Assembly (NCBI RefSeq): GCF_021401135.1
Contig: NZ_JACBFO010000002.1
Coordinates: forward strand, 682,001 to 746,000
Source: Azonexus sp. R2A61
Lineage (GTDB): Bacteria; Pseudomonadota; Gammaproteobacteria; Burkholderiales; Rhodocyclaceae
Reading direction: 5' to 3'
Length of the DNA stretch: 64,000 nt
The translations under genes were made by a program, and so were the position numbers. Below are positions 5,960 through 20,702 of the stretch, in pieces (position 1 is the stretch's first letter; the number at the start of each line of letters is the position of its first letter). The notes below the pieces were generated by a model. The model saw nothing but the letters and a program-made list of their open reading frames with translations. It had not been told where the DNA came from and made no database searches.

Positions 5960-7204
5960 TCAGCCGTAGAACGCGTAGGCGATGAAGATCGCGGCGACCA
6001 ACCCGACCGCATCGGCGATCAGGCCGCCGGCCAGCGCATAGCGGGTGCGGGTGATGTTCACGCTGCCGAAGTAGACAGCCAGCACGTAGAAGGTGGTTTC
6101 GGTGGAACCCTGGATGATCGCCGCCAGCCGGCCCTGGAAGGAATCGACGCCGTAGGTCGTCATCACGTCGACCATCAGGCCGCGCGCGCCGGAACCGGAC
6201 AGCGTCTTCATCAAGCCGACCGGCAAGGCCGGCACGAAGGCGTCGTCGAGGCCGAGCGCCAGCACGCCGGCGCGGATGCCGCCGATCAGATAATCCATGC
6301 AACCGGTGGTGCGAAACACCGAAATGGCCACCAGCATGGCAATCAGGTAAGGCACGATCTGGATCGCCACACCGAAGCCTTCCTTGGCGCCGTCGACGAA
6401 GCTTTCATAAACGTCGATGCGCCGCCAGGCAGCAACGCCGACGAACAGTGCGATCAGCGAGACGATGACGGCGCTGCCGAGAAAACCGATGGTGTGGGCC
6501 ATCTGCTCGGGCGGCATGCCGCGCAGCCAGAGGTAGAGTCCTGCGGTCAACGCCGCGAAACCGGCAAAAAAGCCGAGCACCGGCCGGCAGAACAGGTTGA
6601 TGCGCTGCCACCAGGCGACGGCAACCAGCCCGGCACAGAACGACACGAAGGTGCCGAGCAGCGTCGGCAGGAAGATGTCGGCCGCGTTGAAATTCGTCAG
6701 CCCCTGCTGGATCGCCAGACTCTGCCGGATGGCGATGACCGAGGTCGGAATCAGCGTGATGCCGGCTGTGTTGAGCACCAGGAACATGATCATCGGATTG
6801 CTGGCGACGTCCTGGCGCGGATTGATTTCCTGCAGCTCGCGCATCGCCTTGAGGCCGAGCGGCGTCGCCGCATTGTCGAGGCCCAGCAGGTTGGCGGAAA
6901 AATTCATCACGATGCTGCCGCCGGCCGGGTGGCCGGGCGGAATGTCGGGAAAGATGCGCCGGAAGAACGGCGCCACCAGCCGGCCGAAGACGGCGATCAA
7001 GCCGCCCCGCTCGCCGATCTTCATGATCCCCAGCCACAGGCTCATGATGCCGACCAGGCCGAGCGCGATGTCGAAGCCGGTTTTCGCGGTATCGAACAGG
7101 CCGCTCAGCACGCGCCCGAAGACCTCGAGATCGCCCTGCAGCGCCTGGCCGACGGCGGCGGCAAAGCCGATCAGTATGAAACCCACCCAGATTCGATTCA
7201 GCAC
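5960..7204 (-). CDS. Fused SpmA/SpmB-like nucleoside-recognition (GATE) membrane protein
   Basis: 414 aa, about nine hydrophobic segments. The N-terminal half resembles spore maturation protein A (a VMNFSANLLGLDNAATPLG stretch, around residues 100-120) and the C-terminal half resembles SpmB (GSTETTFYVLAVYFG near 370), so it is the single-chain fusion common in non-sporulating Proteobacteria. These proteins share the 'gate' fold of nucleoside transporters, but their substrate is not established. ATG start at 7204. It stands alone: the next minus-strand gene ends 55 bases upstream. The family call is firm; function is unknown. Confidence 0.85.
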   Translation of the reverse strand: MLNRIWVGFILIGFAAAVGQALQGDLEVFGRVLSGLFDTAKTGFDIALGLVGIMSLWLGIMKIGERGGLIAVFGRLVAPFFRRIFPDIPPGHPAGGSIVMNFSANLLGLDNAATPLGLKAMRELQEINPRQDVASNPMIMFLVLNTAGITLIPTSVIAIRQSLAIQQGLTNFNAADIFLPTLLGTFVSFCAGLVAVAWWQRINLFCRPVLGFFAGFAALTAGLYLWLRGMPPEQMAHTIGFLGSAVIVSLIALFVGVAAWRRIDVYESFVDGAKEGFGVAIQIVPYLIAMLVAISVFRTTGCMDYLIGGIRAGVLALGLDDAFVPALPVGLMKTLSGSGARGLMVDVMTTYGVDSFQGRLAAIIQGSTETTFYVLAVYFGSVNITRTRYALAGGLIADAVGLVAAIFIAYAFYG

Positions 7205-7258
7205 CCTGCGCCCCGCCCGTGTTTTGGCCGGCAGTTTACGCCATGGCCGTACCCGGCG

Positions 7259-7960
7259 TCATGCCGGCAACTGCCAGGCGGCCGCCCGGCGCACAGACTC
7301 GGCACGCGGCAACTGCACCAGCACCGGCCGCGCCGCCGCGTCGAGCCAGGCGCAGACGTCCTGCACGGCCAGCGGATCGCCCGCCGTGCAACCAGCCGTC
7401 GGCACGCCCGGCGCCTCGTGCACATGCAGGAAGATGCACGAACCGGCACCGGCGATCCCGGCCGGGTTGTGGGCAATCACCGCGCCGATCGCGTAGCGCC
7501 CGTCGCTGCGCCGCATTTCTTCGGCCGACACCCAGTCGACCGCAACATCGCGGCGATCGACGAGCCGGTTGTAATGGCGCGAGGCCGGATCGTCCACACA
7601 CCTCAGATCGCCCGTCGCGCAACGGTAAGGCAAGCGCAGCGACTGCGCGACGGCACTGTCCGGCCCGGCCTCGCCGAACAGCCCGGTCAGCGCGAAGAGA
7701 CCGGCCGGCGCCCGCCCATCGCCCTCGGTTTTATGCGGATTTCCGTCGTCGACCGCAGCATGCAGGCCGATTCCCCAGGCCAGCCCGGCCCGCCCCAGAC
7801 TGACGGCAACCGGCTCGCCGCAGGCCTGCCAGGGCGCCGCTGCGGTCGACCGGGAGAAACGCTGAAGCATGCCGCCCGTCGACGACCAGTCGTCGGCCAG
7901 GACGCACAGCAATTGGCGGGAATTCGTCAGCGGCAAGGCAGGCTCCAACGCCGGATTCAC
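7259..7960 (-). CDS. Exported or cytoplasmic L,D-transpeptidase-like (YkuD/YafK-type) protein
   Basis: About 233 aa if the GTG at 7960 is used (MNPALEPALPLTNSRQLL). The upstream reading to 8347 is not protein-like and overlaps the sigma-factor gene. The C-terminal half carries the L,D-transpeptidase core, with HNPAG, then IFLHVHEAPG and the catalytic cysteine in VPTAGCTAG. This cysteine motif matches the branch annotated as L,D-peptidoglycan transpeptidase-like rather than the classic SHGCVRL form. No convincing signal peptide is visible from this start, and the Shine-Dalgarno is weak, so the N-terminus is uncertain. Two copies of the recurrent TGCGGTCGAC motif fall inside the gene. Confidence 0.75.
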   Translation of the reverse strand: MNPALEPALPLTNSRQLLCVLADDWSSTGGMLQRFSRSTAAAPWQACGEPVAVSLGRAGLAWGIGLHAAVDDGNPHKTEGDGRAPAGLFALTGLFGEAGPDSAVAQSLRLPYRCATGDLRCVDDPASRHYNRLVDRRDVAVDWVSAEEMRRSDGRYAIGAVIAHNPAGIAGAGSCIFLHVHEAPGVPTAGCTAGDPLAVQDVCAWLDAAARPVLVQLPRAESVRRAAAWQLPA

Positions 7961-8066
7961 CCGGCCTGTTTGAAAACGCGCAGTGTAGCCGGGCGCGGCG
8001 ACTGCTTGCGGTCGACCTGCCGGTTTCCGGAAAAACGACCTTGACCAGAGGCCTTTCGGCCGACAA

Positions 8067-8085
8067 AATAAGAACCATTCTTGAT
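8067..8085. promoter_or_regulatory. Possible Fur-like operator upstream of the FecI-type sigma gene
   Basis: An inverted repeat AAGAA-CCA-TTCTT at 8070-8082 sits about 60 bases before the sigma-factor start. Iron-responsive fecI-type genes are usually Fur-controlled. Against the 19-bp Fur consensus I count only about half the positions matching, so this is a suggestion only. Confidence 0.25.
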
Positions 8086-8141
8086 TGCCAGCCAAGCCAG
8101 CCACCGTCGCACGGCCCAGCCAGCCTCCCGGAGAAGCCCGC

Positions 8142-8669
8142 TTGAGCTCTGTCACCCGAGATTCCGATCCGCTCGTCGACCTGTACGCCGGCCACCACGG
8201 CTGGCTGGTCGGCTGGCTGCGCCGCAAGCTCGGCTGCCCGGACCGGGCCGCCGACATCGCCCAAGACACCTTCCTGCGCATCCTGCTGTCGCGTGATGCA
8301 CTGTTCGCCATGCGCGAACCGCGCGCCTTCCTGACCACCACCGCCAACCGCCTGCTGATCGACCAGACCCGGCGGCAGGCCGTCGAACAGGCCTACCTGG
8401 CCGAACTGATGCAGGCCGGCGAGCAACAGGCCGGTGCGCCGTCGCCGGAAGAGCTGCTGATCGCCGCGCAAGCGCTCGGCCAGATCGCCGTTGCCCTGGA
8501 AAAAGTTTCGACCAAGGCGGCCGAAGCCTTCCTGCTGCATTATCTCGACGGTCTCGGCCACGCCGAGATTGCCGAGCGACAAGGCGTCAGCACGCGGATG
8601 GTGCGCAAATACCTGGTCCAGTGCCTGCTGCATTGCGCCGACCTGCTGCCGGCACGGCACGGATCATGA
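8142..8669 (+). CDS. ECF sigma factor, FecI type
   Basis: 175 aa from the TTG at 8142, preferred over an upstream TTG (8085) because CGGAGAAG ends seven bases before it. Sigma region 2 (about 10-80, with DLYAGHHGWLVGWLRRKL and DIAQDTFLRIL) and region 4 (about 115-165, ending in a helix-turn-helix with HAEIAERQGVSTRMVRKYL) are clear. It belongs to the group that directs RNA polymerase to TonB-receptor genes after a cell-surface signal. It overlaps the FecR gene in an ATGA junction, so it is the first gene of a signalling cassette controlling the receptor at 9819. Confidence 0.93.
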   Translation: MSSVTRDSDPLVDLYAGHHGWLVGWLRRKLGCPDRAADIAQDTFLRILLSRDALFAMREPRAFLTTTANRLLIDQTRRQAVEQAYLAELMQAGEQQAGAPSPEELLIAAQALGQIAVALEKVSTKAAEAFLLHYLDGLGHAEIAERQGVSTRMVRKYLVQCLLHCADLLPARHGS

Positions 8670-9664
8670 ACGACCGCCTGCAGGCCGTACCGGAAGATCT
8701 GGTCGAACAGGCGGCCGAATGGCTCGTCCGCCAGGGGGTCGACGATCCGGCCGAGGCCCGGGCGGCGGCCGATGCCTTCGCCGCCTGGAAAGCTGCCGAC
8801 CCGCGCCACGCCGCGGCTGCCGCCCGGCTGGAAAACGTGATCGACGGCCTGCGCGAAATCCGCCAGAGCAGTACGCAAAGCAGTGCCCGCAAGGCCTTGC
8901 GGCTATCGCAGCGGCCCCGCTGGTCGGCCGGCGCCCGCGCCCTCAGCATCCTGCTGATCATTGCCGCCGGCCTGTTCCCGGCCGTCTGGATCAGCGGCAC
9001 GCAACCGACCCACCTGATGGCCGACCTGCGTACGCTACGCGGCGAATGGACCGCCCGGACGCTCGACGACGGCAGCCGGCTGGCCTTGAGCGGCGGTACT
9101 GCGGTCAACCTCGAATTCACCCCGGAAAAGCGCATCGTCCGGCTGCTCGACGGCGAGATCATGGTCGACGTCGCCCCCGACGCGAACCGGCCGTTCGTCG
9201 TCGAAACCGAATACGGCACGATCCGCGCGCTGGGCACCCGCTTCCTGGTCACCGCGATCGACGGCGCGACCCGCCTGAGCATGCTGGAATCGCGCGTCGA
9301 GGTCCGCACCGCACCGGATGCCCCGCCGCGCCTGCTGCGCGCCGGCGAAAGCCTGACCTTCGGCCCGAACCGCGAGGAATCGCCGGAAGCGGTCGACAGC
9401 AGCCTGCTCGATACCGCCTGGAACGCCCGTCAGATGGTGGTTCGCGACCGGCCGCTCGGCGAAGTGCTGGACGAGATCGCCCGCCACCGTAGCGGCTATC
9501 TGCGCTACGACCGCAAGGCGCTGGCCGGCATCCACGTGTCCGCCGTGCTGCCGCTCGACGATACGGATCGCGCCTTGCAGTTGCTGCTCAACAGTTTCCC
9601 CGAGCTACACATCCGCCGGATCACCCCCTACCTGGTGATGGTCGGCCGCGCGGAAAAACCCTGA
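8666..9664 (+). CDS. FecR family anti-sigma/signal-relay protein
   Basis: 332 aa from ATG 8666, whose A overlaps the sigma stop codon (ATGA). The N-terminal cytoplasmic DUF4880-like part (about 1-65, with EAAEWLVRQG-type residues and FAAWKAADPRH) binds the sigma factor. One membrane segment follows (about 92-112, ALSILLIIAAGLFPAVWI). The periplasmic FecR domain (about 130-230, with LDDGSRLALSGGTAVNLEF) follows, then a C-terminal STN-like domain (about 255-330, RPLGEVLDEIARHRSGYLRYD region). In the Fec/Fox paradigm this protein passes the signal from the loaded TonB-dependent receptor to the sigma factor. Confidence 0.93.
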   Translation: MNDRLQAVPEDLVEQAAEWLVRQGVDDPAEARAAADAFAAWKAADPRHAAAAARLENVIDGLREIRQSSTQSSARKALRLSQRPRWSAGARALSILLIIAAGLFPAVWISGTQPTHLMADLRTLRGEWTARTLDDGSRLALSGGTAVNLEFTPEKRIVRLLDGEIMVDVAPDANRPFVVETEYGTIRALGTRFLVTAIDGATRLSMLESRVEVRTAPDAPPRLLRAGESLTFGPNREESPEAVDSSLLDTAWNARQMVVRDRPLGEVLDEIARHRSGYLRYDRKALAGIHVSAVLPLDDTDRALQLLLNSFPELHIRRITPYLVMVGRAEKP

Positions 9665-9818
9665 CTTTTTTGTTTCCCGGTTCCGCTTGACGCCGCTCGT
9701 GCGTCAACCAGGCAAGACGATGCCGGGCAGCCACGCCGAACCCCACGACCTGCGCCAGCCAGTTCCCTGATTCGTCGGTATCGCGAGCGATCGCCAACCC
9801 CGATGGAGCCTGCCGAAC

Positions 9819-12662
9819 ATGAAATCCCCGAACACCCGCCCCGCCCGCCAGCGAAAACCGCTGGCCCTGATCCTGCCGCTGGCCCTGGCCAGCCAGTTGG
9901 CCATCGTCCAGCCCGCCGCCGCCCAGGCAGCCACCCGCCACTACCAGATTCCGGCCGGACCGCTCGACGCCACGCTCAACCGCTTCGCGCTGCTGGCCGG
10001 CGTTTCGCTGGTGATCGACGCCGAGAAGCTGAAAGGCCTGAACAGCAACGGCCTGAAAGGCAATCACGACGTCGACAGCGGTTTCCGGACGCTGCTGCAC
10101 AACACCGGATTCGGCGTTGCCCGGACGGCGTCGGGGTACATCCTGGTCGAATTGCCGAAGTCGGGGACAGACACCGGACAGCGCATGCCAGGCCATCATG
10201 GCGAAACCTCGCTGGCACCGGTGCTCGTCGTCGAGCAGCGCGAATGGCAGGGCACCACCCTCGTCGACCGCCACACGATCGAGGCCATGCCGGCCGGCAA
10301 CGGCGACATCACCAGTCTGCTGAAGATTCATCCGAGCGTGCAGTTCGACAACCTGCAGCTAAGCAGCAAGACACCGGGCGAAATCTCGCCGGCCAACATC
10401 AGCATCAACGGCGCCAAGTTCTACCAGAACGCCTTTCTGATCGATGGCCTCAACATGAACAACGATATCGATCCGGCGCAAAGCAATCCGAACCTGGCCG
10501 CCGATGTGCCCGGCAAGAGCCAGGGCCTGGCGCTCGATACCGACCTCCTGGAAAGCATCGCCGTCTATGACAGCAACGTGCCCGCCGCTTACGGACGATT
10601 CAACGGCGGCGTGATCGAAGCGATCACGCGCAAACCGAGCAAGGAACTACACGGCAAGTTGTCTTACCAGACCTCGCGTTCCTCGTGGACCCGCTACAAG
10701 ATCGACGAAACGCAGCGCGAATCGTTTGAAAACTCGGCCAACTACGACGAGCAACCCAATTTCACCAAAACCGTCATCCGCGCCACGCTGGAAGGCCATC
10801 TGACCGAGGACTTCGGCTTGATGGCCAATTTCAGCCAGAAGCGCTCGACGATGCCGACCAGCTTCTACTCGTCCAACAACGTTGGCACGATGGGAATGGA
10901 AAAACGCGATCAGGAACGCCAGATCGACAACTATTTCATCAAGGCCTTCTGGCGCCCGATCCGTCGGCTCGACATCGAATCCAGCCTGACCTACGCGCCG
11001 GAAAACAACACCTACTGGCGGGGCAATACGGCCAATTCGACCTTCGAAACCCAGTCCGGCGGGACCCAGTTCAACCTGAAAGCGCGTTGGGACGGCGATC
11101 TGGCCAAGGTCGAGCAAAACCTGGCCTACGGTCGGCTGCACCAGTCGCGCGATTCGGATTACGACGACTGGTACACCTGGCGCAAATCCACCACCAAGAA
11201 CTGGGGCGTCGGCAATTCCACCGGCGCCAACAGCCTGGAGGGCGGCTACGGCGACGTCGAGCAAGCGCAGAACACCTGGCAATACCGCCTGAACGCCGAC
11301 TGGCGCCCGTTCGAGGCGCTCGGCACCCGGCATCGGCTGCAAAGCGGCCTGGAAATCTCCCAGCAATATGTGCGCTACGCGAGACTTACCGAAAACAGCA
11401 CCTATGTCATCCCGGCGTCGACCAACACCTGCACCAACAGCAGCGGCATCACCGACGACATCACCTGCTCGATCGGCCAGACGAACAACGGTTGGCCCGG
11501 CCAGTATTTCACGCAACGCACCCGCTTCACCACCGGTGAATTCGATTTCACCACGACCCAGTGGGCGCTCTGGCTGCAGGACGAAATCAGCGTCGGCAGA
11601 TTCAACCTTCGCCCCGGTGTACGCGTCGATAACGACGACTACATGAACAAGACGACGCTGGCACCGCGCTTTGCGGCGCAGTACGACATTTTCGGCGATT
11701 ACCGTACGGTACTGAGCGCCGGCGCCAACCGCTACTACGGGCGCAACATTACCAGCTGGCGCCTGCAGGAAGGACGTAACCGGCTGCGCTACAACACCGA
11801 ACGGCGGCCCACGCTGGATGACGACTGGACCGTCGGCACCCAGGCCACCAATCTGGTCAAGTTCAGCGAGCTGGAGGTTCCCTACGACGACGAGTTGATG
11901 CTTGGATTGAGCCAGCGCTGGCGCGGACTGAAGTTCGACCTGAAGTACGTCAACCGCAAGGGTCGCGACCAGATTCTCGAAGTCAGCGGTACCAGCATCG
12001 GACAACCATCGACCGATCCGACCCTGTCCAACAGCTATACGACTTACACCAACGGCGGCCGCAGCGAGACCGACATCGTCACCCTGACCGTAACCCCGCT
12101 GCAGGACCTGCGCTGGCTGGGCACTTACACGACCGGACTGCTGGCCCTCGACTGGCGCGACAGCAAGCAGAACGCGCCCAACTATCTTTACGACAGCACG
12201 GAAAGCGAGGCCTACGTCCGCAATCCATGGATTCAATACGACGGTCAGATCATCCGCTACGCCGACCGTCCGGCCAACAACTACAGCCGCCCGTGGACCT
12301 TGCGCCTGTCGACGATCACCAAGATTCCGGCCTGGCACCTGACCTGGACCAACTTCCTGCGCTATCGGGCAGCCTTCTCGAAGATGGCGCAAACGGTTTC
12401 CGCCAGCACCTCGACGGTCTATCACGATGGACAGCAGGTCGCCATCTGGGAGAAGCGCACCTTCAATCGCAGCCTGACCTGGGACATCCGCCTCGGCTGG
12501 GAACTGCCGATCGCCAACAGTCACGCCTTCTTCGTCAACGTCGACGTGTTCAACGTGCTCGACAAGGCCACCGTCGCCGACAGCACCACGGCCACCAGCA
12601 CCGGCGTACCGATTTATGAAGTCGGCCGGCAGTTCTGGCTGGAGGTCGGTTACCGCTTCTGA
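9819..12662 (+). CDS. TonB-dependent outer-membrane receptor with STN signalling domain
   Basis: 947 aa. Signal peptide (about 1-35), then an STN domain (about 45-95, with IPAGPLDATLNRFALLAGV) that contacts FecR-type proteins. The plug domain (about 125-260) holds INGAKFYQNAFLIDGLNMNN and YDSNVPAAYGRFNGGVIEA. A 22-strand-type barrel ends in the usual terminal Phe (VGYRF). It is an energy-dependent importer that also signals through the FecI/FecR pair directly upstream. The barrel does not resemble any siderophore or B12 receptor I can name. The peroxidase and M16 peptidase downstream argue for a peptide, protein or metal-complex substrate that is processed after entry. The Shine-Dalgarno (GGAG) is rather distant from the ATG. 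Confidence 0.93.
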   Translation: MKSPNTRPARQRKPLALILPLALASQLAIVQPAAAQAATRHYQIPAGPLDATLNRFALLAGVSLVIDAEKLKGLNSNGLKGNHDVDSGFRTLLHNTGFGVARTASGYILVELPKSGTDTGQRMPGHHGETSLAPVLVVEQREWQGTTLVDRHTIEAMPAGNGDITSLLKIHPSVQFDNLQLSSKTPGEISPANISINGAKFYQNAFLIDGLNMNNDIDPAQSNPNLAADVPGKSQGLALDTDLLESIAVYDSNVPAAYGRFNGGVIEAITRKPSKELHGKLSYQTSRSSWTRYKIDETQRESFENSANYDEQPNFTKTVIRATLEGHLTEDFGLMANFSQKRSTMPTSFYSSNNVGTMGMEKRDQERQIDNYFIKAFWRPIRRLDIESSLTYAPENNTYWRGNTANSTFETQSGGTQFNLKARWDGDLAKVEQNLAYGRLHQSRDSDYDDWYTWRKSTTKNWGVGNSTGANSLEGGYGDVEQAQNTWQYRLNADWRPFEALGTRHRLQSGLEISQQYVRYARLTENSTYVIPASTNTCTNSSGITDDITCSIGQTNNGWPGQYFTQRTRFTTGEFDFTTTQWALWLQDEISVGRFNLRPGVRVDNDDYMNKTTLAPRFAAQYDIFGDYRTVLSAGANRYYGRNITSWRLQEGRNRLRYNTERRPTLDDDWTVGTQATNLVKFSELEVPYDDELMLGLSQRWRGLKFDLKYVNRKGRDQILEVSGTSIGQPSTDPTLSNSYTTYTNGGRSETDIVTLTVTPLQDLRWLGTYTTGLLALDWRDSKQNAPNYLYDSTESEAYVRNPWIQYDGQIIRYADRPANNYSRPWTLRLSTITKIPAWHLTWTNFLRYRAAFSKMAQTVSASTSTVYHDGQQVAIWEKRTFNRSLTWDIRLGWELPIANSHAFFVNVDVFNVLDKATVADSTTATSTGVPIYEVGRQFWLEVGYRF

Positions 12663-12710
12663 TCCCCGCAACCCGCAACGGACGCCGGCCAAGCGGCGTC
12701 CTTTCAAACC

Positions 12711-13811
12711 ATGATGAACCCCCTGACCCTGCTTTTCCTGCTCACCCTGCCCCTGCTCTCCCATGCGGACGAGCGCTGCGGTCAACGCCTTGCCGAAGGC
12801 AAAAACGACCCCGTCTGTCTGCGCGACAGTTACCGCCAGCCGATCGCGCAATGGCCCAGGCCACAGGTCGAAGGCCAGGTCGCCTGGCAGGAAATGGCGC
12901 CGGCCAGGCCGGTCGATCTGCCGGCCAGTCTGCCCTATCCGCTGCTCAAGCTCGGCATCCGGCTGTTCTTCGACCCGGCCCTGTCCGCCTCCGGCAAGAT
13001 CGCCTGCGCCTCCTGCCACCGGCCGGAACATGCCTACGCCGACACGCTGCCGGTGACGCCGGGCCATCAGGGACGCATGGGGCGGCGCAACGCGCCGGCG
13101 CTGATCGGCGTGCGCGACGTGCACGAACTGTTCTGGGACGGCCGGGCGGGAAGCCTGGAGCAACAGGCGCTCGGCCCGCTGGCCGACCCGGCGGAAATGG
13201 CCACCGACCTCGCCGCCCTGCCCGCCCGGCTGGCCGCCATTCCCGGCTACGCGGCCGAATTCGCGGCCGCCTGGGGCGACGCCGAAATCACGCTGGCCCG
13301 CATCCAGGCCACGCTGGCCGCCTACCAGCGCACGCTGACGCCGGAAAGAACCGCCTTCGACGCCTTTCTCGAAGGCGATACCGCGGCACTCGACGACCAA
13401 CAATTGCTCGGCCTGCACCTGTTCCGCACCAAGGCCCGCTGCATGACCTGCCACAGCGGCCCGGCGCTCAGCGACAACCAGTTCCACAACCTCGGGCTGA
13501 CCTATTTCGGGCGCCGCAAGTACGAGGACCTGGGCCGTTACGAAGTGACCGGCAAGCACGAGGATGTCGGCAAGTTCAAGACGCCGACTCTGCGCAACGT
13601 GGCGCGTAGCGGCCCGTGGATGCACAACGGCCTGTTCCCGTCGCTGCGCGGCATTCTCAACGCCTACAACGCCGGCATGTTCCGGCCGAAACCGGCGAAT
13701 GCCGCCCAGGCCGCCGATCCCCGCTTTCCGGTCAGTTCGCCGTTGCTCAAGCCGCTCGACCTGAGCGCCGATGAAATCGCGGCGCTCGAAGCCTTCCTGA
13801 AGACCCTGTAA
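12711..13811 (+). CDS. Di-haem cytochrome c peroxidase / MauG family protein
   Basis: 366 aa with a signal peptide (about 1-19, LLFLLTLPLLSHA). Two haem c motifs are visible: CASCH at residues 99-103 and CMTCH at 244-248, the spacing typical of bacterial CcpA/MauG proteins. It acts in the periplasm, either reducing peroxide with electrons from cytochrome c or, like MauG and MbnH, oxidising a protein or peptide. It begins 48 bases after the receptor and ends three bases before the M16 peptidase start, so the three are one operon. That context favours a dedicated substrate-modifying role over general peroxide defence, but this is inference. Confidence 0.92.
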   Translation: MMNPLTLLFLLTLPLLSHADERCGQRLAEGKNDPVCLRDSYRQPIAQWPRPQVEGQVAWQEMAPARPVDLPASLPYPLLKLGIRLFFDPALSASGKIACASCHRPEHAYADTLPVTPGHQGRMGRRNAPALIGVRDVHELFWDGRAGSLEQQALGPLADPAEMATDLAALPARLAAIPGYAAEFAAAWGDAEITLARIQATLAAYQRTLTPERTAFDAFLEGDTAALDDQQLLGLHLFRTKARCMTCHSGPALSDNQFHNLGLTYFGRRKYEDLGRYEVTGKHEDVGKFKTPTLRNVARSGPWMHNGLFPSLRGILNAYNAGMFRPKPANAAQAADPRFPVSSPLLKPLDLSADEIAALEAFLKTL

Positions 13812-13814
13812 GCC

Positions 13815-16526
13815 ATGTTCGCATTCCGATCCGGCCGGCGGCTGGCCGCCGTCCTCATCCCGCTCGCGCTGAGCGCGCCGCTCGCCGTCGCCGCCCCTGT
13901 CCTCGACGGCGAGGCCGGCGGCTTCTCGTCGTACCGCCTGGACAATGGCTTCCGCATCATCCTGGTCCCCTTTCCCGAGGCGGCGACCGCCCGCGTCGAA
14001 CTGCTGGTCCGCAGCGGCAGCAAGCGCGAAGGCTACGGCGAAACCGGCATGGCCCACCTGCTCGAACACATGCTGTTCAAGCAGGCCGGCACGCAAGGCG
14101 ACCTCAAGCAGGCCTTGACTGCGCTGGGTGCCCGCTGGAACGGCACGACCAACGCCGACCGCACCAACTACTTCTCGACCATCGTCGGCGAACCCGACAA
14201 AGTCGACGCGCTGATCCGCATCGAGGCCGACCGTTTCATCCGGCCCGCCTTCACCGCCGCCGACCTGGCCCGCGAGATGAGCGTCGTGCGCAACGAACTC
14301 GAGCGCAAGGACAACGATCCGGCGAGCCTGGCGCGGCGCGCCCTGCTGCGCCAGAGCTTCTTCTGGCACGGCTACGGACGGCCGACCATCGGCGCCCGCA
14401 GCGACATCGAGCAAGCCCCCTTCGCAGCACTGCAGGCCTTTCATCGCCGCCATTACCGGCCGGACAACGCCGCCCTGATCGTCTCCGGCAAGTTCGACGC
14501 GGATCGCGTGCTGGCCTTGTCCGGTCAACTGTTCGGCAAGGCCAAAAACCCGCCGACGCCGGCGCTCGCCGACCGGACGCGCGACGAGCCGGCGCACGGC
14601 CCGCAGCGCAGCGAAATCCATCGCGACAGCGGACAGAGCATGGCCCTCGTCGGCTGGCGCCTGCCCGGCATGAGCGACCGGCAGACCGTGCTGCTGACAC
14701 TGGGCAGCCGGGCCTTGTGCACCGACAGTTGGGGCCGCCTGCGCAAAACCCTGGTCGATGAACGCCAACTGGCGCTCGGCGCCGCCTGCGGCATCCAGAC
14801 GCAAACCGACTACAGCCTGCTGATCGCCAGCGCCGGCGCCGGTCCTGACGGCGACCCGGCAGCCCTGGCCGACGCGCTGGCCGAGACTGTCGACGGCTTC
14901 GCCCGGCGCGGACTGAGCGCCGAACAACTGGCCCGCGCCCGCCGGGCCGAACTCGACGCCTACGCCCGCCGCGGCGAATCCCACGAAGCGCTGGCCGGCC
15001 AGTTGTCGGATGCCGAAACCGCCGGCGACTGGCGGCTGTATTTCCGCGCCCGCGACATCGTCGCCACGGCGACGCTCGACGAGGTCAACGCCGCGCTCGT
15101 CCGCTGGCTGGCCGACACCTACCGTAACGAGGTCCTGCTGCGCAACCTGTCGCCGCGCCGCGTCGAGGCGCCGGCCCCGGCGGCCGCCCCGGCCGAATTG
15201 CTGGCCGGCGGACAATGGCCGCCGCTGGCCCGCGAAGCCGATCCACTGCCGGCTTCGTTCGCCGAACTGGCCGCGCAAAGCGTCGCCGTCGACCTCGGCG
15301 ATCCGTCGGCCAGTGCCCTGCTGCTGCCGGGACGGCGGCGCGGCGGCCGGGCCTGGCTGCTGCTGGCCAACGACTACGGCAACCCGGACACGCTGCGCGG
15401 GCGCGGCGCCGCCTGTTCGCTGGCCGGCGCACTGCTCGCCCAGGGCTCGCCGGAACGGGACCGCAACCGCCTGGCCGCCGCCCTCGAAACGCTGCAGGCG
15501 AAAACCTCGTTCGGACTCGGACAGCTGCGGATCGAAGCGCCGGAGGCCAACCTGGCGGCGGCGCTCGATCTGCTGCTGGCGGTGCGCCGCGCCCCGGCGC
15601 TACCGGAGAAGGAATTCGTCCGCCTGCGTGCCGCCGCCCTCGCCGAGCTGGAAGCCACCCGTCGCCATCCCGGACAACTGGCCGCCAATGCGGCCGCGTT
15701 GCGTTTCGACAACTACCCGGCCGATCACCCGGCGCGCCCGCGCCCGCTGGCCGAACGGATCGCCGAATTGCATGCCGTGACTTACGCCGACGTGCGTCGC
15801 TGCGTCGCCGATTTTGGCGGCCGTTCGCGTATCCGCCTGGCCGTCGTCGGCAACTTCGACGAAGACGCCGTGCGCGGCTTCTGGCGGCAGATCGCCACGC
15901 TGCCGGCGGCGCCGCACGCCTACCGGCGGATCGATCCGCCGGCCGCGCCGGACCGCGTCGATGGCAGCCCGATCGTTGTCGCGCTGCCGGCCAAACCGAA
16001 CGCCGACGTGTTCGGCATCGCGCAGTTGCCGCTGCGCCTGACCGACGCCGATTACCCGGCCCTGATGCTGGCCGTCCGCCTGCTTGGCGGCGACAACGAC
16101 AGCCGCATCCGCCAGCGCCTGCGCGAGCGCGAAGGGTTGGCCTACAGCGCCGGCGCGTCGCTCAGCGCCAGCCCCTTCGTCGCCCGCGGCACATTGTCGA
16201 TCTCGGCCAGCGCCGCCAGCCCGCAGGCCGAGCGGGCGCGCGAACTGCTGCGCGAGGAACTGGCCCGGGCCCTGGCCGACGGCTTTTCCGAAGCGGAAGT
16301 CGCGCGCGCCAAGGCCGCCTGGAAAAACGGCCGCCAACTGGCGTTGACCGCAGAATCGACGATTGCCGGCCATTTGCTGCAAGCCCAGCGCAGCGGTCTC
16401 GATGCCCGTTGGGAAGCCGGGCTGGAACATCTCGTCGACGAACTCGACGCGGCTGCGGTCAACGCCGCGCTGCGCAAATTTCTGGCGCCGGCGACTGTCG
16501 TCTGGGGCATTGGCAAGGGCGAGTGA
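13815..16526 (+). CDS. Periplasmic M16 family (pitrilysin/PqqL-like) zinc metallopeptidase
   Basis: 903 aa with a signal peptide (about 1-26). The zinc site is intact: HLLEH at residues 81-85 and the third ligand Glu161 (VRNELERKD), exactly 76 residues after His85. The chain contains two M16-type halves; the second (from about 490) lacks the HxxEH motif, as is normal. M16 enzymes cleave short unfolded peptides in a closed chamber. Enzymes beside TonB receptors (FusC with FusA, PqqL with YddB) degrade imported iron proteins in the periplasm, and the same arrangement is seen here. It starts three bases after the peroxidase gene. Confidence 0.93.
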   Translation: MFAFRSGRRLAAVLIPLALSAPLAVAAPVLDGEAGGFSSYRLDNGFRIILVPFPEAATARVELLVRSGSKREGYGETGMAHLLEHMLFKQAGTQGDLKQALTALGARWNGTTNADRTNYFSTIVGEPDKVDALIRIEADRFIRPAFTAADLAREMSVVRNELERKDNDPASLARRALLRQSFFWHGYGRPTIGARSDIEQAPFAALQAFHRRHYRPDNAALIVSGKFDADRVLALSGQLFGKAKNPPTPALADRTRDEPAHGPQRSEIHRDSGQSMALVGWRLPGMSDRQTVLLTLGSRALCTDSWGRLRKTLVDERQLALGAACGIQTQTDYSLLIASAGAGPDGDPAALADALAETVDGFARRGLSAEQLARARRAELDAYARRGESHEALAGQLSDAETAGDWRLYFRARDIVATATLDEVNAALVRWLADTYRNEVLLRNLSPRRVEAPAPAAAPAELLAGGQWPPLAREADPLPASFAELAAQSVAVDLGDPSASALLLPGRRRGGRAWLLLANDYGNPDTLRGRGAACSLAGALLAQGSPERDRNRLAAALETLQAKTSFGLGQLRIEAPEANLAAALDLLLAVRRAPALPEKEFVRLRAAALAELEATRRHPGQLAANAAALRFDNYPADHPARPRPLAERIAELHAVTYADVRRCVADFGGRSRIRLAVVGNFDEDAVRGFWRQIATLPAAPHAYRRIDPPAAPDRVDGSPIVVALPAKPNADVFGIAQLPLRLTDADYPALMLAVRLLGGDNDSRIRQRLREREGLAYSAGASLSASPFVARGTLSISASAASPQAERARELLREELARALADGFSEAEVARAKAAWKNGRQLALTAESTIAGHLLQAQRSGLDARWEAGLEHLVDELDAAAVNAALRKFLAPATVVWGIGKGE

Positions 16527-16541
16527 CGGCATTTTTCCGGC

Positions 16542-16565
16542 AATCCTGCGGTCGACCGCAGGATT
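16542..16565. terminator. Palindromic hairpin with TGCGGTCGACCGCA core
   Basis: A perfect 24-bp palindrome centred on TGCGGTCGACCGCA (16547-16560), with ATTTTTCC on both sides (around 16531 and 16571). It follows the M16 peptidase stop codon by 15 bases and probably ends that operon. Confidence 0.7.
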
Positions 16566-16597
16566 CAGCCATTTTTCCACGGTGCGCCGCCGCGATG

Positions 16598-16630
16598 AAA
16601 AAACCGCCCGACCGGGCAGGTCGGGCGGTT
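16598..16630 (-). terminator. Rho-independent terminator of katG
   Basis: A 12-bp stem, AACCGCCCGACC (16602-16613) pairing with GGTCGGGCGGTT (16619-16630), with a five-base loop. Read on the minus strand it is followed by a run of six T residues. It lies just beyond the katG stop codon. Confidence 0.85.
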
Positions 16631-16653
16631 CGTCGTGACAACCGGCCGCAGGT

Positions 16654-18888
<2,235 letters not shown>

Positions 18889-18960
18889 TCAAGATAGCAA
18901 AGAAGCCCGAAAATCTCGTGAAATCATTCCCAATACGGGAGATTGAGGATCGCTATCGCG

Positions 18961-19845
18961 CTACATTCCCCCGGCGACCAGTTCGGCGAAGCGGCGGGCC
19001 AGTGGCGTCGGTTCGAGGGGCAGCAACAGCGCACTGCCGGCGCGGGCATCGGCATCGCGCAGGGCCCGCCAGACGACGCCATGTGCCGCCAGCGATTTCA
19101 TCCGCTCGGGCACGACGGTGATGCCGTGCCCGGCAGCGACCAGTTCGAGCTGGCTGGTCTTGCGCGAGATCACCCGGGCCTGCGTCGGCACGAAACCGCG
19201 GCTCAGGCAAAGATCGGTGACCCGGCGGGCCAGGCCGCCGCGCTCGCGATGCACCGCCGATACGAAAAATTCGTCCCGCAGGTCGTCGACCGCAAGAAAG
19301 TCGCGAGCGGCCAGCCGATGGCCGTCGGGCAGCGCCACCCATAGCGGCTCGTCGGGCAAGGCGGCGAGTCGCACGGCGGGATCGCGGCGCAGCAAGGGCA
19401 GCCGAACGACGCCCAGATCGGCGCGTCCGGCGGCGACTTCCGTCACCTGGATTTCCGATGCGACGCGATCGAGATCGATGCGCGCACCTGGGCTGGCGTC
19501 GAGAAAGCGGGCGATGAACGGCAACAGGCTGCTCGCCGGAAATGAACTGGAATGCAGCAAGCGGAGCACGCCGCCCTCGCCGCGCGCCAGTTGGGCGCTT
19601 TCCTCGGCGGCGGTGGCCAACTCGCGCTGAATCCCCGAGACACGTTCGCGGTACAACTCGCCGGCCGGCGTCAGCCGGGCACCGCGGGCTTCGCGGACGA
19701 ACAGCGTGAAGCCGAGTTCGGCCTCCAGTTGCGCCACCTGCCGGCTCAGTGCCGGCTGCGCGACGAACAGTGCGGCGGCGGCCTGGGTGAAGCCGCCCAG
19801 ATCGGCGACGGCCAGGAAATAACGGATTTGTTTCAGCGTAGCCAT
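18961..19845 (-). CDS. LysR family transcriptional regulator
   Basis: 294 aa from the ATG at 19845 (MATLKQIRYFLAVADLGGF). Winged helix-turn-helix at about 1-60 (TQAAAALFVAQPALSRQVAQLE), then the two-lobed effector domain (about 90-290). It is divergent from the TSUP exporter gene, with 92 bases between starts, the usual position for a LysR regulator and its target. It lacks the redox cysteines expected of OxyR in a recognisable arrangement, so I do not assign it to katG despite proximity. The effector is unknown. Confidence 0.9.
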   Translation of the reverse strand: MATLKQIRYFLAVADLGGFTQAAAALFVAQPALSRQVAQLEAELGFTLFVREARGARLTPAGELYRERVSGIQRELATAAEESAQLARGEGGVLRLLHSSSFPASSLLPFIARFLDASPGARIDLDRVASEIQVTEVAAGRADLGVVRLPLLRRDPAVRLAALPDEPLWVALPDGHRLAARDFLAVDDLRDEFFVSAVHRERGGLARRVTDLCLSRGFVPTQARVISRKTSQLELVAAGHGITVVPERMKSLAAHGVVWRALRDADARAGSALLLPLEPTPLARRFAELVAGGM

Positions 19846-19937
19846 GCCATCCCAGCATCGATTAGCGACGAATTTGATATTTGTTTTATACCTTGCGCGT
19901 TCGCAGAATCCAAGCATCGCTTTCCCGGAAACGCCTC
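19846..19937. promoter_or_regulatory. Divergent promoter region between LysR and TSUP genes
   Basis: The 92-base gap contains an AT-rich segment (about 19865-19900, with TTTGATATTTGTTTTATACC) unlike the GC-rich surroundings. LysR proteins usually bind such shared divergent regions. No single operator can be fixed by eye. Confidence 0.4.
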
Positions 19938-20702
19938 ATGAACGATCTGCTGTTCACCCTCTCTCCCCTCGAACATCCGCTGCGCTTTGCGCTGGCCTTC
20001 GCCACCCTGGTGCTCGCCTACGGCGTGTTCACACTGGTCGGCTTCGGCTCGGGGCTGATCGCCGGCGCGCCGCTGGCGCTGGTGATGCCGGTGGCGCGGG
20101 TCATTCCCTTGCTGGCGGTACTCGATTTCGCCGGTTCGGCGACGCGCGGCTGGCAGCATCGGCAACGCGTCGCCTGGTCGGCTTTCCGCCGGCTGCTGCC
20201 GGGCATGCTGGCCGGCCAGGCGCTCGGCGTGCTGCTCCTGGCCCGGCTGCCGTTACGCGCGACGGCGCTGACGCTCGGCTTGTTCGTCGTCTGGCAGGGG
20301 CTGCGCGGCTTGCTCAAGCGGCACGAGCCGGCCGCTCGACCGGCCGGACCGGCACTGCTGCACGGATTGATCGGCGGCATATTCGGCGGCTTGTTCGGCA
20401 GCGGCGGCTTCGTCTACGCCGCCTGGCTGGAACGCAGCCTGCCGTCGCGCGAGGCATTTCGCGCCACGCAGGCGGTGATCGTCGCCCTGTCCACCGGCTG
20501 GCGCATCGTGCTGTGCGCCGGACTCGGCCTGCTCGACGGCGCCCTGCTGCTGACTGCACTGGCCTGCGTGCCGGCCATGCTGATCGGCGTCAAGGGCGGC
20601 CAGCGCATCGATCTGCGGCTCAGCCGCGAGCGCCTGTTCCTGCTGCTCAACGGCCTGCTGGTGGCCAGCGGCGGCGGCCTGCTGCTGCGCCACCTGGCCT
20701 GA
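19938..20702 (+). CDS. TSUP/TauE-SafE family membrane exporter
   Basis: 254 aa from the ATG at 19938. Seven to eight hydrophobic segments, with the duplicated TSUP pattern (GFGSGLIAGAPLALVMP near the start, GLIGGIFGGLFGSGGFVYAAWL in the middle). Family members move sulfite, sulfoacetate or other small anions across the inner membrane. The partner LysR gene is divergent. It ends one base before the convergent response-regulator stop. Substrate cannot be told from sequence. Confidence 0.85.
   Translation: MNDLLFTLSPLEHPLRFALAFATLVLAYGVFTLVGFGSGLIAGAPLALVMPVARVIPLLAVLDFAGSATRGWQHRQRVAWSAFRRLLPGMLAGQALGVLLLARLPLRATALTLGLFVVWQGLRGLLKRHEPAARPAGPALLHGLIGGIFGGLFGSGGFVYAAWLERSLPSREAFRATQAVIVALSTGWRIVLCAGLGLLDGALLLTALACVPAMLIGVKGGQRIDLRLSRERLFLLLNGLLVASGGGLLLRHLA

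Follow-up and report, generated by a model that had tools for sequence, protein, structure and literature searches.

What would a bacterium take up through a surface-signalling receptor whose gene is followed by those of a periplasmic haem enzyme and a periplasmic peptidase? The question is raised by a locus of Azonexus sp. R2A61 that lies at positions 8142-16526 of a 64,000-nt stretch of its genome (contig NZ_JACBFO010000002.1, positions 682,001 to 746,000; hereafter the window). A preliminary description had read five genes there, in tight order, as FecI, FecR, an STN-type receptor, a MauG/CcpA-type di-haem enzyme and an M16 peptidase, and all five were found, on the + strand. The reading that we judge most likely, at about even odds, is that the locus is a Fus-type iron-protein uptake operon under cell-surface signalling, the cargo of which would be oxidised by the di-haem enzyme and cleaved by the M16 peptidase.

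Gene order and its conservation

The first gene (8142-8669, TTG start) encodes a FecI-type extracytoplasmic function sigma factor (Pfam Sigma70_r2, E 8e-12; Sigma70_r4_2, 3.4e-12), for which an NCBIfam FecI-like match stayed under the equivalog cut-offs. It overlaps by 4 nt the gene of a FecR-type membrane sensor and anti-sigma protein (8666-9664; Pfam FecR, 1.3e-19; DUF4880, 7.4e-6), which is followed after 154 nt by the gene of a TonB-dependent receptor with STN, plug and barrel parts (9819-12662; plug, 3.1e-6; STN, 8.4e-6), after a further 48 nt by that of a periplasmic di-haem c enzyme of the CCP/MauG superfamily (12711-13811; CCP_MauG, 2.5e-48), and after another 3 nt by that of a single-chain M16 metallopeptidase (13815-16526; Peptidase_M16, 1.4e-20; M16_C, 1.4e-51). 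A small partner gene was sought in the 154-nt gap and is not evident there, since the sole + strand open reading frame (ORF) of at least 20 codons within it is 27 codons long, begins with TTG and lacks cysteine.

The receptor was searched for at E 1e-60 in 100 genomes that included the window's own (G000; genomes and loci carry our G and L numbers) and 59 others of the same genus. It was matched in 7/59 of the latter, making eight matches in all with the window's genome. The order FecI-FecR-receptor-di-haem-M16 was intact in six of them (G008, G031, G039, G045, G046 and G047); in the seventh, G028, it is broken over two contigs within the receptor gene, with FecI beyond the contig end, and the two halves presumably represent one operon. 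Six further intact copies in the genus, and a seventh that is split, place the five-gene order beyond chance. The preliminary description had allowed that the peroxidase and the peptidase might not be conserved beside the receptor; within the genus both are kept there, the two occurring together in all eight operon copies. Wider searches that likewise included the window's genome returned the receptor in 2/369 genomes of the class and 8/398 of the phylum, and a plasmid search returned eight records, every one below 60% identity.

Receptor family, signalling and receptor exchange

Among PDB entries, the receptor was matched best by FusA (4zgv, phmmer 2.2e-104, residues 141-946) and YddB (6ofr, 1e-86), and 12 others among the matches listed align solely inside receptor residues 12-120, the signalling region. 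A predicted structure of moderate quality (pLDDT 64.7, 10 sequences) gave a Foldseek ranking that agrees with the sequence search, FusA (2.2e-54) and YddB (3.1e-49) being followed by PfeA (6.1e-25). Escherichia coli YddB is 29% identical to the window's receptor. As FusA and YddB come out best in both the sequence and the predicted-structure comparison, the receptor is assigned to the FusA/YddB protein-import family and not to the siderophore receptors, with which the preliminary description had thought it might cluster.

The STN match (25.9 bits, slightly below the Pfam cut-off of 28.4) aligns with the signalling domains of FecA, HasR and FoxA. FecI, FecR and an STN receptor are thus encoded together as in FecIRA-type surface signalling, from which the operon differs in that its barrel is of the protein-import family. 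A FecR gene adjoins all 19 receptors in which the match begins at residue 27 or earlier, and so takes in the STN region, and none of the eight in which it starts at or beyond residue 106, E. coli YddB among them.

A candidate FecI-dependent promoter, GTTCCGCTT-N13-CGTCAA, lies at 9680-9707 (+ strand) and is invariant in 8/8 operon loci. As these same loci served to define the motif, the informative points are its single copy per genome and its absence elsewhere: in the 100 genomes searched, it was found once in each of the eight that bear the operon, in 0/52 same-genus genomes without it and in 1/40 more distant genomes (G089), and a reversed-pattern control matched 1/100. The site may well act as a FecI-dependent promoter. 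Ahead of the receptor gene, a partly conserved leader (9708-9818, + strand) contains blocks common to both receptor types described below; blocks such as AGCCAGTT are kept even between operons with receptors just ~41% identical. The leader was also considered as a known RNA family and rejected as such, Rfam at gathering thresholds giving no match to it or elsewhere in 7000-20000.

The eight operon receptors fall into two types, I (G000, G008, G031, G045 and G046) and II (G028, G047 and G039), and a single clade of all eight was rejected in an approximately unbiased (AU) test that was set after the first tree had displayed the split (p-AU 2.8e-7). The window's receptor is 41% identical to the operon receptors of G047 and G039, 53-58% identical to seven of eight receptors from Pseudomonadaceae and 49% identical to the eighth. 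In the di-haem tree, the 8 rows from the genus group together at 100/100 to the exclusion of Pseudomonadaceae, and so do its 7 rows in the FecR tree; one long Pseudomonadaceae row, L015, is included in both. These comparisons argue that the receptor was exchanged within an otherwise constant operon.

The two periplasmic enzymes

The di-haem protein carries two CxxCH sites (C99-x2-C102-H103 and C244-x2-C247-H248), which are invariant in a 9-row alignment together with H119, W142, Q152, E162 and Y319. Q152 and E162 follow the bridging W142 by 10 and 20 residues, and the spacing in the Neisseria enzyme (PMC10094543) served to assign roles to the three. Tyr319 aligns with a Tyr of MbnH (6e1c), and a Tyr stands at this MauG/MbnH column in 19/19 receptor-linked di-haem homologues. 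By the alignment, it would serve as the sixth ligand of the high-potential haem. At the same column, the genome's own MbnH-like protein has Tyr, and its two CcpA-like proteins have a gap with an MGRxQLG stretch just after it, the Met of which we take to be the haem ligand. In PMC7567364, Tyr is conserved throughout MauGs, with Met or His in cytochrome c peroxidases (CCPs), and is used to tell MauG from CCP. The enzyme is nevertheless not called a MauG here, because H119, 16 residues past the first haem His, is kept as in the aligned CcpA, classical peroxidases head its PDB matches (1iqc, 2.7e-48), and the NCBIfam scores are far under the cut-offs for MauG (TIGR03791, 189.9 against 443.85) and MbnH (TIGR04039, 186.1 against 362.85). 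By its sequence it is best described as a hybrid, MauG-like in one feature.

The peptidase, whose N-terminus resembles a signal peptide by eye, retains the zinc site that had been recognised as intact, H81-x-x-E84-H85 with E161 76 residues on, in all eight operon copies. In a 26-row M16 tree, one 100/100 split sets the operon and stand-alone M16s apart from four Fus-type M16s and E. coli PqqL, and forcing the operon M16s together with the Fus-type was rejected (p-AU 0.009). The genomes that supplied the Fus-type rows have a FusA-like receptor, and the stand-alone rows, of the same genus or order, are best matches to the window's M16 with no match to its receptor in their stretches; ten rows have an odd amino-acid make-up, and Pectobacterium FusC is absent by name. 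The parallel earlier drawn with YddB-PqqL and FusA-FusC does not extend to the branch of the peptidase. Since it lies outside the PqqL/Fus-type branch, the operon M16 was probably recruited separately. Such a recruitment, if true, would be convergent evidence for polypeptide delivery by receptors of this kind, and the presence of another branch's M16 next to a receptor of the FusA family is consistent with selection for cargo cleavage. The stand-alone M16s L044 (G039) and L045 (G044) nest within the operon M16 clade, which suggests copies that left the operon, or its remnants.

Relation to known systems, cargo and rival readings

Outside the genus, tblastn was run on stretches of 12-23 kb at 18 loci that encode a FusA-like receptor (eight from Pseudomonadaceae, Helicobacter L016, G834, G788, G668, G778, G640, G801, G819, G220 and E. 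coli YddB). A di-haem enzyme alone was found in 11, a PqqL/Fus-type M16 alone in five, neither in two and both in none. The eight Pseudomonadaceae loci (L009-L015 and L017) have the order FecI-FecR-receptor-di-haem, with no M16 in the stretch searched. Together with G834 they resemble clusters described in section 6 of PMC6793856 (Grinter 2019), according to which FusA homologues pair with the FusC peptidase or, lacking FusC, with a cytochrome c peroxidase; the statement in the preliminary description that known parallels each cover only part had overlooked these clusters. They share with the operon a FusA-like receptor adjoining a di-haem enzyme, and were reported where FusC homologues are absent, whereas an M16 is also present here. 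The main text of that paper makes no use of the words FecI, FecR, sigma factor or MauG; its supplementary gene-context list may include a locus with both enzymes. Among the papers listed in literature searches, covered mostly as titles and starts of abstracts, none was seen to describe the full combination of FecI/FecR, FusA-like receptor, di-haem enzyme and M16. A mirror image of the Pseudomonadaceae loci was seen in L079 (G788), where FecI, FecR and a FusA-like receptor are joined by an M16 of the Fus/PqqL type and no di-haem enzyme was matched.

The Fus system of Pectobacterium (FusA receptor, FusB TonB-like, FusC M16, FusD ABC) likewise combines a FusA-family receptor with an M16 for iron from an imported protein. 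The operon differs from it in adding FecI/FecR, the STN domain and the di-haem enzyme and in its M16 branch, and neither FusB nor FusD was found in or beside it by Pfam on the five genes, the LysR and TauE genes, 5963-7204, 7262-8347 (an ORF without any Pfam match) and 16657-18834. YddB-PqqL of E. coli is similar in that an M16 gene adjoins the related receptor gene, whereas its M16 is PqqL-type and its 14 kb stretch has no FecI/FecR or di-haem match. Because pairing with either enzyme has been published and both never occur together in the 18 loci outside the genus, oxidant and peptidase in one Fus-type import operon are an addition to a system already described and not a new kind. What is new here is the MauG-type Tyr, the separate M16 branch, the receptor exchange and the one promoter-like site per genome before the receptor. 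That oxidant and peptidase occur side by side speaks against the one merely substituting for the other.

Iron is the likeliest cargo metal, because iron genes lie near the operon in 4/7 relatives. A FeoB-like gene and two bacterioferritin genes are present within ~7 kb of it in G008, G031, G045 and G046, a ferric-binding protein gene in G008, G045 and G046, and a flavodoxin and a full-length FeoB in G046 (family assignments come from Pfam, NCBIfam and PDB searches with just the G008 and G046 copies). FecI follows a FeoB-family gene by 216-269 nt on the same strand in those four relatives, so co-transcription with the operon is possible. Thirteen sequences upstream of FecI were also scored for Fur-box-like sites against a Fur consensus; seven reached 13-16 of 19 (G039 with 15, L015 with 16, and L010, L012, L013, L014 and L017), L009 scored 12, and G008, G031, G045 and G046 scored 9-11.

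Under iron-protein uptake, an external iron-bearing protein would bind the FusA-like receptor, the STN domain would signal FecR, and FecR would release FecI, which would transcribe the receptor, di-haem enzyme and peptidase genes from the dedicated promoter. The TonB-energised receptor would move the cargo protein into the periplasm, where the di-haem enzyme, with its peroxide-activating Gln and Glu and its MauG-type Tyr, would oxidise the cargo or its metal centre and the M16 peptidase would degrade the polypeptide; freed iron would then pass to general iron transporters. This reading draws on gene content and order, receptor family, Tyr319, the zinc site, the promoter-like site and the iron genes of four relatives, all at the level of sequence. 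A narrower and distinctly more tentative version is that a MauG-type high-valent haem breaks open the imported metalloprotein before or while the M16 cuts it, for example by attacking an iron-sulphur centre or a nearby tryptophan of the cargo, in a cargo-induced system with swappable receptors on an operon chassis. Cargo proteins are known for few FusA-like receptors, and the cargo-sensing version would offer a direct handle on them through the 9680-9707 site.

Several points weigh against iron-protein uptake with cargo oxidation. To our knowledge, protein import has been demonstrated in few FusA relatives, and no substrate is evident in the operon. The CcpA-type H119 and the classical-peroxidase matches count on this side too, and the AlphaFold model of the di-haem protein is poor (pLDDT 59.3, 9 sequences) and gives no structural test. 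Searches with the G008, G046 and G039 copies at E 1e-15 detected none of these iron genes near the operon in the window, in G047, in G039, on the short contig of G028 or in the eight Pseudomonadaceae loci. The window's own Fur-box-like site upstream of FecI (8064-8082, + strand) is weak, with 12/19 consensus matches and a shuffle p of 0.043 for that sequence alone, uncorrected for the 13 sequences.

The strongest rival for the role of the di-haem enzyme, which we still consider unlikely, is that it is purely protective, removing hydrogen peroxide and thereby sparing the cell Fenton damage from M16-released iron while the cargo is left untouched. Its likeness to classical peroxidases in the PDB and its CcpA-like distal-His position would suit this role, as would a KatG-like peroxidase gene that adjoins the operon in the window (16654-18834, - strand, convergent; Pfam peroxidase, 3.6e-73). 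The Tyr kept in every receptor-linked homologue, the mark by which PMC7567364 separates MauG from CCP, argues the other way, and shifts the question from reduction or detoxification to cargo oxidation. A di-haem enzyme also accompanies a FusA-like receptor without any M16 in 11 of the 18 outside-genus loci. The KatG-like gene had no match around the operons of the seven relatives (19 kb stretches each; 6.4 kb for G028), so it was excluded from the system and rejected as an operon partner. A reducing role, in which the di-haem enzyme would make the imported protein shed its cofactor and the M16 would just clear the apoprotein, is rather improbable. Tyr-ligated MauG-type enzymes act as oxidants, which speaks against reduction. 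The idea has been proposed in print for FusA homologues with cytochrome c peroxidase (PMC6793856), in clusters without FusC, whereas the M16 is also present here.

Import of a copper peptide or protein, as by methanobactin loci, is more doubtful still. These loci (PMC3621798) also contain FecI-FecR, an STN receptor and a MauG-like enzyme, and MbnI-MbnR-MbnT with MbnP/MbnH resemble the operon in FecIR-type signalling, the STN receptor and a MauG-like di-haem enzyme with Tyr. The operon differs in having an M16 and no MbnP (methanobactin genes beyond MbnP were not searched for). The genome's single MbnP gene lies elsewhere (G000:C7:290404-291216), beside another, MbnH-like di-haem gene (region 290404-291881; L089, L060), the operon enzyme scores 186 against the MbnH cut-off of 363, and no gap fits an MbnP-sized gene, the 27-codon cysteine-free ORF being the only + strand one of at least 20 codons in the window's 154-nt gap. 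A second FusA-like receptor of G039, with FecI/FecR-like genes (L043, G039:C1:993000-1008000), could be counted in favour of copper, as it stands among NosL copper-family genes, one 40 nt on and two more upstream; neither a di-haem enzyme nor an M16 is in that stretch, and the locus is possibly a copper-linked variant. With iron genes flanking the operon in four of the seven relatives as well, copper was rejected as the best explanation, and the methanobactin parallel of the preliminary description is reduced to an analogy. Least probable is an ordinary siderophore or ferric-chelate receptor that two unrelated periplasmic enzymes adjoin by chance. FecI, FecR and STN are typical of siderophore systems and the plug matches a general Pfam model, but the Foldseek difference (FusA, E 2e-54; best siderophore receptor, 6e-25) had already disfavoured it, and, even though receptors were exchanged, seven same-genus genomes keep the order and an eighth has it split.

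Further signalling-receptor genes were seen in operon-bearing genomes. Directly after the operon of G031 comes another set of FecI, FecR and receptor genes (L038, 12349-16311), and the receptor of this set matches that of the window in the STN region only. The window's own genome contains, at G000:C7:633124-674792 (L086-L088), a large signalling-receptor array of ~42 kb with eight receptors of related STN domains and eight FecI-FecR pairs.

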